DNA of 39,670 bases, from IMG/VR virus record IMGVR_UViG_3300020159_000809, positions 1 through 39,670 of that record. The stretch is one strand, 5' to 3'. Below are positions 18,292 through 24,259 of the stretch, in pieces. A program made the translations under genes and the position numbers. The notes under the pieces were generated by a model that searched no databases, was not told where the DNA came from, and saw nothing but the letters and a program-made list of their open reading frames with translations. How positions within the stretch are numbered: the first letter of the stretch is position 1; every line of letters starts with the position of its first letter. Source of the stretch: a virus.

Positions 18292-19836
18292 TCATACCTC
18301 GTTGTGTCGTAGGAACTCTGAAAGAGCACCTAGGTTTAATTGGAAACTTCCCTTGCTATCATATCCACCGTCTATAAATGCTTTATTTATTCCTCGTTTT
18401 TCTTGCAGCATTTCATATTGTCTCTCTTCAATACTGCCCTTCATAACGAATGACACGATGTTAACGTGTGGGAACTCAGAAGACAACCTAATGATTCTGG
18501 CTTCTCTTTGATCCAATTTCCCAGCGCTCCAAGGAAGGTCATAGGAGATGAGGTAATTGGCAATTGGCAAGTCCACGCCATACCCTCCAGCATCAGAAGA
18601 CAAGAACAGACGGGTATTGGGGTCAGTGGAGAATTGCTGTTTAGACTTATCTCTATCCAGCATGTCCATACCGCCCATAAACAAAACACTTCTTGTAATG
18701 TCCTTAGTCTCTTGTTGCAATAGACGTAAATTGTTCTTAAAGAATGAGAACAAAACAACCTTATTCTTTGGATCTTCTTCCAAAACATCCGTAATGTATT
18801 GAACTACTGCGTCAAGTTTTGGGGTATTAAAATTATCTTGAACCAAGCCTTGTGTAACAACTTGTGATGCATGTTTACTTCCTTGATCGTTACTTACATC
18901 TAAGTACATCTCTGCTGACATCTTTACGAGGGCGGGATTATCGCAAAACATACGGAGCGTAGTTAACCTAGACATGATGTCACCTTGCGCTTCCATGCCC
19001 TTATTGTTTCCGTAGTAATGCGCCCAAAGATCAAACCCCCGACCATGCTCTGTCATTGCTTTTTGAATTGCATTGAGCAAGTCATCAGATAGTTTTTTGT
19101 AGGTTGCTGCACCAAAGGGGTCAAATGGAACTGGAACTACCTGATAAATAACCACTGGAAGTTGATCAGCAATATCCTCACGAGTCTTACGAATCATTGC
19201 ATGCTCCATACTCTGATGCAATGACTTTAAGTTCCTATACCTCTTTGGTTTACCAAAGTGGTCACGCTCAATAAAAGTTCTATCAAACACCTCAAACTTG
19301 CCCAAAATTGTTGGGTCTACAAATTCCATAATGGAGAACAGTTCTTCTGGTCTATTCTCAATAGGTTGTCCTGTCAATGCAAATCTGTAGTGGTATTTCT
19401 TTCCAATGCGCTTAATCAAGCGTGAGCGTTTTGCTCGTGGAGTTTTAATCATGGTTGCTTCATCAACAACAATTGCATCAAACTTGTGCTTCTCAAAGTG
19501 AGCAAGGTCATTAGCAAGTGACTCAGGATTAACAATTACGTATTGTGCACTAACTGCTGTTCTCCATAACTTCTTCCTTGCAGCAGCACCGCCATCAATA
19601 ACAATGCAAGAAGAGTCGGTAAATCTTTTAATCTCTCTATCCCATTGGTACTTTAGTGATGATGGAACAACAACAAGCGTTTTGGTGACATCTCCAGATA
19701 CTTGAAGATTCTCAATAGCGGCAATAGTGGTAATTGTTTTTCCAGCACCCATCACAAGGGCCAGTAGCATCTGCCCACGATCCACCATCTGCTCTGTGGC
19801 TTCTTCCTGAAAAGGGTACAGAGTTCCTTTAAACAT
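18292..19836 (-). CDS. SNF2/superfamily 2 DNA helicase
   Basis: A 514-residue protein with Walker A MGAGKTIT (near residue 30), DEAT Walker B (VVDEATMIK) and the ALTGQP helicase motif III-like segment. C-terminal motifs follow: FSFFKNNL, FLSSDAGGYGVDL and REARIIRLSS (motif VI). The FKGTLYPFQEEATEQM N-terminus is the Q-like/motif-I lead. Such phage helicases are translocases that remodel DNA or displace proteins and are usual in replication operons. It overlaps the primase stop by eight bases. Confidence 0.93.
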   Translation of the reverse strand: MFKGTLYPFQEEATEQMVDRGQMLLALVMGAGKTITTIAAIENLQVSGDVTKTLVVVPSSLKYQWDREIKRFTDSSCIVIDGGAAARKKLWRTAVSAQYVIVNPESLANDLAHFEKHKFDAIVVDEATMIKTPRAKRSRLIKRIGKKYHYRFALTGQPIENRPEELFSIMEFVDPTILGKFEVFDRTFIERDHFGKPKRYRNLKSLHQSMEHAMIRKTREDIADQLPVVIYQVVPVPFDPFGAATYKKLSDDLLNAIQKAMTEHGRGFDLWAHYYGNNKGMEAQGDIMSRLTTLRMFCDNPALVKMSAEMYLDVSNDQGSKHASQVVTQGLVQDNFNTPKLDAVVQYITDVLEEDPKNKVVLFSFFKNNLRLLQQETKDITRSVLFMGGMDMLDRDKSKQQFSTDPNTRLFLSSDAGGYGVDLPIANYLISYDLPWSAGKLDQREARIIRLSSEFPHVNIVSFVMKGSIEERQYEMLQEKRGINKAFIDGGYDSKGSFQLNLGALSEFLRHNEV

Positions 19837-20758
19837 TGATCCACCAGGGGAATACTGATGCTTGTGTAATTGCCGTAGTAATTTGTTCGTGTGTCATGTC
19901 ACCGATGTCTTTTGCGTCCGTGTGTGCGTAGTGCAACCAGTTTACACCATGCCTAAAGGATGGAAGTAACTTCTTTAAGCGTTTGGCGGCATTAATGCCT
20001 GCCTCATCGTTATCCAAAGCAACAATCAACCCATCAAAGTGTTCAACCAATAGTGAAATCTGATCCTTGCTAATGTGCGCTCCAAAAGAAGCCACACCAC
20101 TAACACCAGTCATGACCGTAGCAAGCCGTGCTACATCCAATGGAGATTCCACAAGTACACCAATCGGGCTGTCTGCTTTGTCTAAGCCAAATAAGGTCTC
20201 CGACTTCTTAACGCCAATTGGATAGTTTCTCACCCTGTTTACTTCTTTCTCCTGCCAACCACTTAATTCGCCTAATGGAGAAACGATAGGCAGAATCCAA
20301 GTCTGGCTACTCTCCACAAACCTAATCCCGTACTTCTTTGCGGAGTCACGATCAATGCCACGAGTCTTGATCCACCTATCTGATGGCGCTGGGAAAGCAC
20401 TGAATGCCTTCCAATCAACTACTGGTCGCTTCTCAGCAATTTGTGGTGTGTTCATACGATCTAATCCGTTGGATACAAGAAATGTATGTACTGCAATAAT
20501 TGAATCACTCTCACCAGTCAGTTCAGACACAAGTGAAGAAAGAGTTCCTCTAGCACCACAGGAGTAGCACAACCATAAACCCGTGTTGGCATTCATTGAC
20601 CACGAAGGAGAGCCATCAGCCTTCCCTGTTCGCTTGTAGTGTACTGGGCAGCAAGCAGAAATCTCTTGCTCCCCAATACGCCGAACGTCCACACCAAGTT
20701 GGCGTAGCACATCTGCTACATCAGTAATACCAGTTGTCCCTGTCATCGTCCTTGTCAT
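19829..20758 (-). CDS. DnaG-like primase, zinc-finger plus TOPRIM
   Basis: Residues ~35-75 carry the CHC2-type zinc finger (CCPVH and CYSC). The TOPRIM domain follows with VESPLDVA (Glu) and ALDNDEAG (D-x-D). It makes RNA primers for the DnaB-like helicase encoded just upstream. At 309 residues it is half the size of bacterial DnaG and lacks the helicase-binding C-terminal domain. The ATG at 20756-20758 is favoured, with GGAG nearby; an in-frame GTG precedes it. The 38-base overlap with the helicase gene suggests coupled translation. Confidence 0.92.
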   Translation of the reverse strand: MTRTMTGTTGITDVADVLRQLGVDVRRIGEQEISACCPVHYKRTGKADGSPSWSMNANTGLWLCYSCGARGTLSSLVSELTGESDSIIAVHTFLVSNGLDRMNTPQIAEKRPVVDWKAFSAFPAPSDRWIKTRGIDRDSAKKYGIRFVESSQTWILPIVSPLGELSGWQEKEVNRVRNYPIGVKKSETLFGLDKADSPIGVLVESPLDVARLATVMTGVSGVASFGAHISKDQISLLVEHFDGLIVALDNDEAGINAAKRLKKLLPSFRHGVNWLHYAHTDAKDIGDMTHEQITTAITQASVFPWWINV

Positions 20759-21986
20759 CACCCTCTTCTCCTACTTCTGTAAAGTCCATGTTATTCCAAT
20801 CCCAATTAATTCTAATCTCACCTAGTGGTGCAGAACGAGCAAGAACAACACGAATAATTCCCTGATTTTCAATATCAGGATCTGACTCCACTGCCAGTAC
20901 TAAGTCAGAGTCCTGAGCGAAAGAAGAAGTGTAGCCAATAGAGTCAGCCGTTACACGGCGTGATTTCTTGTTACCCAACTTCCAAGACAAAACCTGAGTC
21001 GTTCCAACAACTGGAATGTCTTGGTTTTGTGCAAGCCTTTTTAGTGAGCGAGTGATATTTGTTAATGCTTGTGGGCTTCCCTTTGGCTCACCTTGCTCAT
21101 CATCCATCAAGTACACACCGTCAATAAACAAAATGTCAGGTTGATACTCCTTGACCTTTGCTGTCAGTGCGCTAACAGTTGTTACAGACGCTGTGTCTTC
21201 TGTAATTACAAATGGGTGCATGTTCTTACGCATACGCAGAGTCTCACGAACACGCTCAAACTCTTGGTCAGATAATGACGCACGAAGAATGTTGCTGTAT
21301 GGAACTTTGGCAACGATTGCGTCATATCGTGCTGCTTGCTCCTCTGCTGACATCTCAAATGAAACAAAGAGTGGGCGCTTGCCATGAATGTGAGCAGCGT
21401 TAGCCATCATCAAAGTCATCAAGGACTTACCCTTCTTGGCTTCACCCACGAAGGTAATCAACTGTTGTGGGCGCAAACCTGATGTGATTCTGTCAAGACC
21501 TTGTATACCTGTAGGAATACCACGAATGGCATTAGGCATCTTACGAAGTTCATCGTACTTGTTTACTCGGTCTTCCCAAGTCTCAATAAGGTTTACATCT
21601 CGTAGGCGAGCAACATCCGCCCCAGCCTTTTGTACTCCAGCAGCAAGTAGTTTAAACGCCTCAGTGGTATCCCCACTTTGTATTGCAGGCATTGCAGCAG
21701 ACATTGCTTCAACCAAGTTACGGTGACGATACGAGGCATAGATTTCGTTAACAAGAGCGCTAAATGGTTCACCCTTTGCATCAACAAACTTGATGTCTCC
21801 AAACTCTTGTTTGATCGCACGAGTAGTTGGAACCTCACCATGCTCTCTCCAAAAGGAAACTAACCACTCCCAAACAATTTCCCACTCAGCAGTAAAGTAG
21901 TGCGCTTTCACGCCATGCTTTAGGGAGTACGAAAGGTCTTGCTCCTGAACTACCTTGCTAATTAAGAGTTGTTCTGCGCTAGCCAT
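20721..21986 (-). CDS. DnaB-like replicative helicase
   Basis: A 421-residue RecA-fold helicase: N-terminal helical domain, linker, then GEAKKGKSLM (Walker A) and DILFIDGVYLM (Walker B), then VVGTTQV and RRVTADSIGYTSSFAQDSDL as in DnaB H3-H4. The start at 21986 is chosen by TGATG overlap with the preceding stop; the frame is open four more codons upstream. It unwinds the fork and works with the primase directly downstream. Confidence 0.92.
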   Translation of the reverse strand: MASAEQLLISKVVQEQDLSYSLKHGVKAHYFTAEWEIVWEWLVSFWREHGEVPTTRAIKQEFGDIKFVDAKGEPFSALVNEIYASYRHRNLVEAMSAAMPAIQSGDTTEAFKLLAAGVQKAGADVARLRDVNLIETWEDRVNKYDELRKMPNAIRGIPTGIQGLDRITSGLRPQQLITFVGEAKKGKSLMTLMMANAAHIHGKRPLFVSFEMSAEEQAARYDAIVAKVPYSNILRASLSDQEFERVRETLRMRKNMHPFVITEDTASVTTVSALTAKVKEYQPDILFIDGVYLMDDEQGEPKGSPQALTNITRSLKRLAQNQDIPVVGTTQVLSWKLGNKKSRRVTADSIGYTSSFAQDSDLVLAVESDPDIENQGIIRVVLARSAPLGEIRINWDWNNMDFTEVGEEGDDKDDDRDNWYY

Positions 21987-22429
21987 CAGAGTGACCACGA
22001 GGTAGTCGTAGACACAACTGTTGCTCGCATGCCGATTACCTTTGCCTGTTCTTGATCTGCGGTGTAGATTTTTGCAATGCCTCTGTTGAACTGCAACTCA
22101 AAGGCAAGGTCTTCAATGTTGTCAAATGAAACCACGTTTGTTGATATCCCCTTCTTCAATAGCCACCTGTCAATTGCTTCAGCAAAACCAGGAGGAAACA
22201 ATGTATACACCTCTGTACCAACTCCCAACCTATGGATTGAATCACTTAGATGTTTTACTGGCAGTGGGTTTGTAGTCCACAACTTTAAGTAAGCATCCCA
22301 CTTCTCGTTCCTTAAAAAGAAAGCGGCTTTAACTTTTTCAACTGTCCTTGTCGGCTCTGACGCAAGTATGCCTTCAAACATAGTTGCTTGCACATGTGGT
22401 GCAAAAGAGGCGAGATCATTACCCTGCAT
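21986..22429 (-). CDS. Hypothetical replisome-region protein, 147 residues
   Basis: Starts at ATGCAGGG, 11 bases inside the DnaC-like stop. Residues 20-60 are helical (TMFEGILASEPTRTVEKVKAAFFLRNEKWDAYLKLW), and the remainder mixes strands (VVSFDNIEDLAFELQF, AKVIGMRATVVST). No known family. The position between loader and helicase suggests a helicase-loading accessory. Confidence 0.7.
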   Translation of the reverse strand: MQGNDLASFAPHVQATMFEGILASEPTRTVEKVKAAFFLRNEKWDAYLKLWTTNPLPVKHLSDSIHRLGVGTEVYTLFPPGFAEAIDRWLLKKGISTNVVSFDNIEDLAFELQFNRGIAKIYTADQEQAKVIGMRATVVSTTTSWSL

Positions 22430-23060
22430 GTTGTGTGACTCGGTAGTCCTTTCCTTCAAAGGGAATCTGAAGTGTAGCATCTTGCAAAATAGATGCAAGC
22501 CTCGGTCCATAATTATTTCCAATAGAAGCAATGCTGAACTCGGAAGTAACGATGGTAATCAGTTTCTGCTCATAGCGACTATTCAACAAAGTAGCAATTG
22601 CATTCTTTGTAAACTCTGTCTTCTTCTCACTTCCCAAACTGTCTAGTACGACAACATCAAAGACTGAGTTGATGTACTTCAAAAGGTATGGATCACCGTA
22701 CTCATCTGGAAGTTCACCATCGGATCGCAATTCGTCATAGGTTGCAGCAATAAACTTCTCTGCTGTAATGAAGAAGCCACCAAGTTGCTTAGTAAACAAA
22801 ATCTCTGACAAGAGTGCGGCAGCGAGGTGCGTCTTACCTGTTCCTGTAGCGCCACAGAAGTACAGACCTTCACCGCTTTCAAGGTTCTCATCAATGTTGG
22901 CTGCCCAGCCACGAATTGCTTTAGTTACACCCCAACTACCAACATCTTCGTTGTAACTATCCAATGTCTTATCCATGTACCGTTTCGGGATGTGTGCGTT
23001 ACTCACTCGCTCTGCTGGCTTACGATTTCTCCAATAGCGAGGACCATGCCATTCAGTCAT
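22419..23060 (-). CDS. DnaC/IstB-like AAA+ helicase loader
   Basis: The 213-residue protein has Walker A FCGATGTGKTHLAAALL (~residues 65-80) and Walker B VVVLDSLGSEKK. Phage loaders of this type bind DnaB-like helicase and deliver it to the origin. The start at 23060 gives GGAG ten bases upstream and overlaps the previous stop by eight; the open frame extends 34 codons further. It is next to the winged-helix initiator gene and the origin-like repeats. Confidence 0.9.
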   Translation of the reverse strand: MTEWHGPRYWRNRKPAERVSNAHIPKRYMDKTLDSYNEDVGSWGVTKAIRGWAANIDENLESGEGLYFCGATGTGKTHLAAALLSEILFTKQLGGFFITAEKFIAATYDELRSDGELPDEYGDPYLLKYINSVFDVVVLDSLGSEKKTEFTKNAIATLLNSRYEQKLITIVTSEFSIASIGNNYGPRLASILQDATLQIPFEGKDYRVTQHAG

Positions 23061-23481
23061 GTAGGTACTTCTCCAATCGTGGATCAAACTTAACTTCTTG
23101 TGGAACTGTTGGAAGAGTATCGGATGCGATGCGTTTAAGCAACCCACCTCTGCGACCAGCAAACGCTATCCAAGGAACTTCTTGATTTCCCAATGGAGTG
23201 CGCTTAATATCATCTGCAAATATATCAATCATCCGATAAATCTGAATAGGTGTTACCGACTTAGATAACATGTCTTTAAATATTTTCATCAAGGCTGGAC
23301 CGTTTACAGGAGCGTTTAAAGTCATAGACGTACTGATGGTGACATCCCGAAAGTATCTAACCATGTGTGTAAGCCCTTGCTTCTTTTCCAGAACTTTGGG
23401 TTGCTCAGGCTCAGGCTCGTCTGCCCCAATAACTTTTACATCCCAGTCATCACCCTTCTTGTTTTGGCGTGTAATGAGCAA
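23053..23481 (-). CDS. Putative replisome-associated protein, 142 residues
   Basis: Between the initiator and the loader. The start is probably the TTG at 23479-23481, 31 bases inside the preceding gene, as the only other in-frame Met is at residue 40. A polar linker (EPEPEQP) precedes a helical core (PALMKIFKDMLSKSVTPIQIYRMIDIFADDIKR) and a C-terminal strand/helix part. No known family. Loader-associated protein is a guess from position. Confidence 0.6.
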   Translation of the reverse strand: MLITRQNKKGDDWDVKVIGADEPEPEQPKVLEKKQGLTHMVRYFRDVTISTSMTLNAPVNGPALMKIFKDMLSKSVTPIQIYRMIDIFADDIKRTPLGNQEVPWIAFAGRRGGLLKRIASDTLPTVPQEVKFDPRLEKYLHD

Positions 23482-23602
23482 CCCTCACTCTCTTGCTACC
23501 TTCCACTGGATCCAATGACAAAGCAGTACCTTTTATGATTTTGCCTTTTTCATCCGTGACCTGAGTTTCGTAATCCCACATCCATCGCATAGTTCTTTTC
23601 AT
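23450..23602 (-). CDS. Small hypothetical protein, 50 residues
   Basis: The ATG overlaps the stop of the initiator gene as ATGA, the same coupling used all along this operon. The peptide has alternating aromatic/basic residues (MKRTMRWMWDYETQVTDEKG) and a basic end (KRVRVAHYTPKQEG). It overlaps the next gene's TTG start by 32 bases. It fills the only gap between 23481 and 23599, which supports a real gene. Function unknown. Confidence 0.6.
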   Translation of the reverse strand: MKRTMRWMWDYETQVTDEKGKIIKGTALSLDPVEGSKRVRVAHYTPKQEG

Positions 23603-24120
23603 TTCTGCTCACTTTCTTTGACAGTTTTAAGTTGACGCTGCCATCTAGGGTCCGATAAGAATAGGGCATCTTTCTTTCTCTTTTTGGATTTCCCCTCTAG
23701 ATAAAGATTAGTCTCTCTAGATTGGGTGTCAGCAGTGACACCCTCCGAGGGTGACTCCAGTGACACCCCGCTAGTGTCACCAGTGACACCCCTAGGGGTG
23801 TCTACAGTGTCACCCCTACGAGAGTTTGGATTGTTGAAATCAACCCGATAGAGGTTCGTCATGCTTCTGCCAGTCTTACCTTTTCGCACTGTCTTGATAA
23901 CAGCACCAGACGACTCAATACGGTTCATAGCCCGAATGACTGTTCTACGGTCATAACCTGTAAGTTCGGCTAGGTGGTCATAGGACGTTGTTATGTCTTG
24001 CCTATCGCCGTTCATGTAAGTCAGGGCGTGTATAAGCACACAGAGTGCTACTGCATCTTGCCCTAGGTATTCCAAGACCCATCGTGGTACTGGTATGAAC
24101 TGCCCATTTAATTTCGCCAT
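23599..24120 (-). CDS. Winged-helix replication-initiator-like protein, 173 residues
   Basis: Residues ~1-95 form a winged helix typical of phage initiator/replisome-organiser proteins: QDITTSYDHLAELTGYDRRTVIRAMNRIESSGAVIKTVRKG, then a wing with NLYRVDF. The next 45 residues are a degenerate Thr/Asp/Gly repeat (GDTVDTPRGVTGDTSGVSLES) encoded by an iteron-like DNA repeat. A basic C-terminus (KSKKRKK) may help DNA contact. AAGGA lies eight bases before the ATG. The layout, binding sites within the initiator's own gene, is like lambda O. Confidence 0.75.
   Translation of the reverse strand: MAKLNGQFIPVPRWVLEYLGQDAVALCVLIHALTYMNGDRQDITTSYDHLAELTGYDRRTVIRAMNRIESSGAVIKTVRKGKTGRSMTNLYRVDFNNPNSRRGDTVDTPRGVTGDTSGVSLESPSEGVTADTQSRETNLYLEGKSKKRKKDALFLSDPRWQRQLKTVKESEQK
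23724..23816. repeat. Iteron and palindrome cluster, candidate replication origin
   Basis: Four copies of CAGTG(A/T)CACCC start at 23733, 23758, 23781 and 23805, spaced 25, 23 and 24 bases. Inverted copies interleave: GGTGTCA/TGACACC around 23725-23742, CACCCTC/GAGGGTG at 23740-23754, GTGTCAC/GTGACAC at 23773-23788, and a perfect 18-base palindrome GACACCCCTAGGGGTGTC at 23785-23802. The repeats are inside the winged-helix initiator gene, as in lambda-type origins. A 9-base half site, CACCCCTAG, recurs upstream at 24172-24180. Confidence 0.75.
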
Positions 24121-24210: not shown

Positions 24211-24259
24211 GTGGTAAGGGTGCTGGTGATTTCCCCTTCTTTGATCCAGCACCCACCAC
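24211..24259 (-). terminator. Strong stem-loop after the 210-residue gene
   Basis: GTGGT-AA-GGGTGCTGG (24211-24226) pairs with CCAGCACCC-ACCAC (24246-24259), a 14-pair stem with a two-base bulge and 19-base loop. It begins three bases after the stop at 24263. A GC-rich stem here would suit termination of the tail operon before the replication operon, but no U-tract follows. It could instead be a processing site. Confidence 0.45.

Follow-up and report, generated by a model that had tools for sequence, protein, structure and literature searches.

A probable lambda-type replication origin inside the initiator gene of a phage with only distant cultured relatives

The window, that is the whole stretch of viral DNA analysed here (IMG/VR record IMGVR_UViG_3300020159_000809, 39,670 bases), carries a block of replication genes on its minus strand. 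An O-like replication initiator of 173 amino acids (23599–24120), assigned from Pfam, PHROG and an AlphaFold2 model, is followed by a 142-amino acid protein of unassigned function (23053–23481), whose gene, by synteny, directly follows that of the initiator in every case and which has no Pfam or PHROG match. Next come a DnaC-like helicase loader (22419–23162; phrog_50 at 6e-37, and synteny), whose true start is probably internal, and a 181-amino acid protein with no assigned function (21986–22531, placed between loader and helicase by synteny), whose true start may be internal. A DnaB-like replicative helicase (20721–21998; DnaB_C at 2e-31, phrog_19 at 6e-61) and a DNA primase with a zinc ribbon and a Toprim domain (19829–20761; Pfam and PHROG) complete the block. 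All 16 relatives that we compared share this order (initiator, unassigned gene, DnaC-like loader, second unassigned gene, DnaB, primase), some of them being only 62–65% identical in DnaB. The 142-amino acid protein, lying between initiator and loader, is a candidate adaptor. The window also encodes a tail sheath protein, a family A DNA polymerase and RecA (Pfam, PHROG) and is probably a fragment of a larger genome, one relative contig being 97 kb long. The named phages closest to the window in sheath and DnaB are those of Streptomyces (such as BRock and GiJojo, 31–35% identity), a kinship that hints weakly at an actinobacterial host.

The initiator matches Pfam HTH_36 (5e-6), phrog_270 (7e-14) and the O-like families phrog_678 (2e-8) and phrog_391 (4e-8), in agreement with the winged-helix initiator candidate proposed in the first-pass annotation. 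It has no match to Pfam Phage_rep_O (PF04492, the family of lambda O proper) at an E-value of 0.1; lambda O itself, used as a control, matches this profile at 6e-36. The AlphaFold2 model contains a fairly confident winged helix (residues ∼13–97), a disordered stretch (residues ∼101–152) that coincides with the linker encoded by the repeats described below, and a C-terminal helix (residues 158–172). The overall pLDDT is 61, and thus the winged helix alone is reliable. When this model was searched with Foldseek, numerous HTH initiators of phages were returned, among them the lambdoid O protein of phage Min27 (1e-5), and plasmid Rep proteins in the PDB matched weakly.

Four phased repeats lie inside the initiator gene and span positions 23724–23815. 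As previously noted, they comprise three copies of CAGTGACACCC, starting at 23734, 23759 and 23782, and one copy of CAGTGTCACCC at 23806, with spacings of 25, 23 and 24. The inverted copies described as interleaved with them are present, but they are the second arms of 20-bp dyads rather than separate elements. We find that the natural unit is this 20-bp dyad with the core GTGWC-N6-GWCAC, which occurs four times at distances of 23–25 bp. On the minus strand the iterons are R1 (23796–23815, GGGTGACACTGTAGACACCC), R2 (23772–23791, GGGTGTCACTGGTGACACTA), R3 (23749–23768, GGGTGTCACTGGAGTCACCC), whose reading frame differs from that of R1, R2 and R4, and R4 (23724–23743, GGGTGTCACTGCTGACACCC), which has perfect 8-bp arms. 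A search with the dyad GGGTGTCACTGNTGACACCC returned four minus-strand matches with 0–2 mismatches and one reading of the same site in reverse, whereas 100 dinucleotide shuffles of the window gave no match. All four occurrences of the exact core in the 39.67-kb window lie in the initiator-gene array, and the core scan located no second dyad array elsewhere in it. The perfect 18-bp palindrome GACACCCCTAGGGGTGTC (23785–23802), taken in the first-pass annotation for an additional dimeric site, does exist but is the place where R1 and R2 meet. Besides the window, one distinct relative sequence has it (L002, the same as L003, L013 and L014), while it is missing in 43 of 45 distinct initiator genes, and we rejected it as a separate site for this lack of conservation.

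Directly 3′ of R4 lies a tract (23664–23723, minus strand) with an AT fraction of 0.63 and a purine fraction of 0.67, which is a candidate unwinding element; its AT excess is modest when compared with the locus mean of ∼0.57. The GC skew has no inflection at the array, an absence that is uninformative here because nearly all genes of the fragment are on one strand.

We compared the array among relatives. A scan with DnaB yielded 73 loci, which together with loci from another search gave 45 distinct homologous initiator genes; these genes are related, and counts made across them are thus not independent. In all 45, the winged-helix region is followed immediately by four dyads with a 6-nt spacer, a few of which depart from the core at one or two positions. 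The exact core occurs 166 times within these genes versus twice in 656 kb outside them. The dyads occupy two reading frames, the place of the odd-frame dyad varies by clade, and the relatives use five frame and spacing schemes (24/23/25, 30/23/25, 22/24/24, 24/22/24 and 26/22/24). Because the dyad frames differ between clades, the amino acids of the linker vary while the DNA repeat stays. Comparing the window with L004, L005 and L010, we count 0 synonymous differences in the 23 codons of R2–R4 and 28–40 in the 98 codons of the winged helix. Codon-preserving shuffling of the window gene, repeated 20,000 times, never produced four dyads. Judged by these sequence comparisons, the dyads are selected as DNA and not as protein. 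Loss of the repeats at the DNA level in relatives that keep the protein, the outcome that the first-pass annotation had held against its own reading, was not seen; we found the opposite. In the replication region of BRock and GiJojo we looked for a homologous initiator and for dyads, and found neither.

The replication origin of phage lambda, ori-lambda, consists of four iterons, each an 18-bp inverted repeat, and a 39-bp high-AT region, all located in gene O (PMC6022878; see also PMC7466680). For lambda, the script applied to the window returns iteron spacings of 20, 24 and 23, places the iterons in all three frames and gives AT and purine fractions of 0.68 and 0.67 for the 60-nt flank on the 3′ side. 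The corresponding values for the window are spacings of 24, 23 and 25, two frames, and fractions of 0.63 and 0.67, and the flank averages 0.68 AT and 0.71 purine over the genes of 44 relatives. The iteron, spacing, frame and flank figures thus agree with those of lambda and indicate the same design, and the proposal of a compact new origin design has to be given up in favor of the lambda ori design. Direct sequence and profile comparisons between the window family and lambda O revealed no significant similarity, so that the link to lambda O is made by shared PHROG families (phrog_678 and phrog_391 are matched by both proteins), fold and architecture. The feature-by-feature match with ori-lambda makes an intragenic lambda-type origin the best reading, and we consider it very probable that the repeats represent such an origin, contained in the very gene that encodes its initiator. 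The earlier suggestion that the initiator gene doubles as origin is probably correct in the light of the conserved in-gene dyads and the lambda-like layout. Most likely, a design already known from lambda is documented here in a group of phages whose cultured relatives are all distant.

Alternatively, the dyads could be sites at which the winged-helix protein acts in regulation (autoregulation or a transcription block), or in another cis role such as partition or packaging, with replication starting elsewhere. Winged helix-turn-helix proteins are often repressors, and repressors, as well as the plasmid segregation protein TubR, are among the PDB fold matches of the model. However, the PHROG families of the protein are those of replication initiators, the dyads are located mid-gene beside an AT-rich tract and not at a promoter, the replication gene order is constant, the layout agrees with that of ori-lambda, and the window contains no second array, all of which makes a purely regulatory or other cis-acting role improbable. 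We assign a still lower probability to RNA hairpins selected in the mRNA. Each dyad could, from its sequence, fold as a short hairpin, but the pairing is not kept: of 208 W/W dyads (a count that includes a few weak matches outside arrays), 88 combine arms that are incompatible at their fourth position (left A 72, right A 16), and the ∼24-bp phase of the dyads persists. The choice of A or T appears to be independent in the two arms (both-A 8 observed versus ∼9 expected), and for this reason many dyads cannot pair fully at this position as RNA; despite this, both arms still fit the GTGWC half-site. We therefore rejected the hairpin on the basis of its non-complementary arms. The linker reads GVTGDT or GVTADT in some units, but the matching Thr/Asp/Gly protein repeat claimed earlier simply results from translation of the DNA repeats, which lie in two frames, and a protein repeat with no role for the DNA is scarcely credible, since it is ruled out by the differing frame of R3, the variable frames among relatives and the frozen synonymous sites in R2–R4, with the linker predicted to be disordered and codon shuffles failing to reproduce four dyads.

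Comparison of initiators and their iterons revealed that in L070 all four dyads have changed from GTGTC to GTATC/GATAC, except for one right arm, and that the second position of the recognition helix has changed from Arg to Ile. L026 has Thr at this position, and its dyads have drifted in a partly similar way. Initiators with Arg or Ser at the second position mostly keep GTGWC. These observations, made in two lineages only, are suggestive of an iteron sequence that changes along with the recognition helix.

If the array is a lambda-type origin, dimers of the 173-amino acid winged-helix protein would occupy the four 20-bp dyads, each dyad taking up a single dimer and lying about two helical turns from the next, and would form an O-some-like complex. 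This complex would open the adjacent AT- and purine-rich tract (23664–23723), and the C-terminal tail of the initiator, perhaps together with the 142-amino acid neighbor, would recruit the phage DnaC-like loader and DnaB, after which the phage primase would join. From its layout, we infer origin activity for the array segment. A broader proposal, which we put forward as tentative and rather doubtful at this stage, is that a large uncultured phage group may use a minimal, split lambda-type initiation system composed of a 163–192-amino acid initiator (hardly more than winged helix, origin-encoded disordered linker and short tail), a separate 142-amino acid adaptor and a DnaC-like loader. The GTGWC-N6-GWCAC array would then recur in several distinct initiator families and mark origins from sequence alone, its iterons co-evolving with the recognition helix.

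A leader hairpin is located ahead of the initiator gene, at 24211–24259 (minus strand) in the window. In L021, L023, L026, L050, L057, L064, L066, L070, L073, L075 and L084, it precedes the initiator start by 50–145 nt. Its stem sequences vary between relatives yet pair, and a purine-rich, Shine-Dalgarno-like AAAGAAGG or AAAGGAGGT is retained in the loop region. Single-sequence folds have z-scores of −2.3 to −5.2, and the predicted fold differs in L064 and L073. The hairpin has no Rfam match, and its stems are misplaced in the automatic alignment, so that covariation could not be properly counted; the hairpin may serve the initiator gene as a ribosome site or as a regulatory RNA element. In one clade only (L031, L032, L034–L038, L040 and L041), a perfect 18–20-bp palindrome, TTGTACGTAATTACGTACAA, is found ∼50 nt before the first iteron.

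Our analysis provides a precise and testable pair of putative origin and initiator sites for phages without close cultured relatives, and places the lambda arrangement, an origin in the initiator gene, under strong DNA-level selection in distant phages that encode a DnaB and a DnaC-like loader themselves. In metagenomic phage genomes, origins could be called by means of the dyad array, and the matched variants of initiator and iteron form a natural data set on DNA recognition by winged helices.

Related arrangements can be found beyond this family. Scanning viral contigs for a pair of neighboring GTGTC-N6-GACAC dyads, we obtained at least 120 stretches. Among the matches listed, 48 of 79 loci examined contain a gene matching the window-family profile, and L088, L090, L098, L146 and L161 apparently encode HTH initiators that are more distantly related and have dyads within their genes, a hint that several phage initiator families have this iteron class in common. 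L088, L090, L109, L111, L122 and L123 contain ORFs of 429–442 amino acids outside the window-family profile. The HTH-initiator-like proteins that lie off this profile (the 429–442-amino acid ORFs and those of L098, L146 and L161) have their GTGTC-N6-GACAC dyads in two or three frames. In the literature available to us, we found little on intragenic phage origins outside the lambdoids.

The likeness to plasmid RepA-type winged-helix initiators (PDB IDs 5kbj, titled as a Rep-DNA complex, 4pql and 4pt7) is a match in fold, and a weak one (E ∼2e-3). Initiators of the HTH_36/phrog_270 type from Parageobacillus phage JGon-2020a and Pseudomonas phage vB_Pae_U7 share with the window a homologous winged helix followed by intragenic repeats in more than one frame, but have other iteron sequences and longer proteins. 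The JGon-2020a protein is a distant homologue (29% identity) and, unlike the window initiator, has a DnaB_2 C-terminal domain; its gene contains four different, GGTTCTNNNAGAACC-like dyads, 21–22 bp apart and in all three frames, behind which lies a stretch of 77% AT that includes a tandem 14-mer. The repeats of vB_Pae_U7 occupy two frames of its initiator gene.

Lambda, lambdoid and Stx phages have in common with the window four imperfect palindromic iterons of 18–20 bp, ∼20–25 bp apart. In both lambda and the window, the iterons lie in the middle of the initiator gene, in several frames, and are followed by an AT- and purine-rich tract; the initiator is a winged-helix protein, and the helicase loader gene is located downstream. 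The window differs in its own iteron sequence (GTGWC-N6-GWCAC), in the length of the initiator (173 versus 299 amino acids for lambda O) and in a DnaC-like AAA+ loader in place of lambda P. Unlike lambda, the window phage encodes its own DnaB and primase and carries the 142-amino acid gene between initiator and loader.
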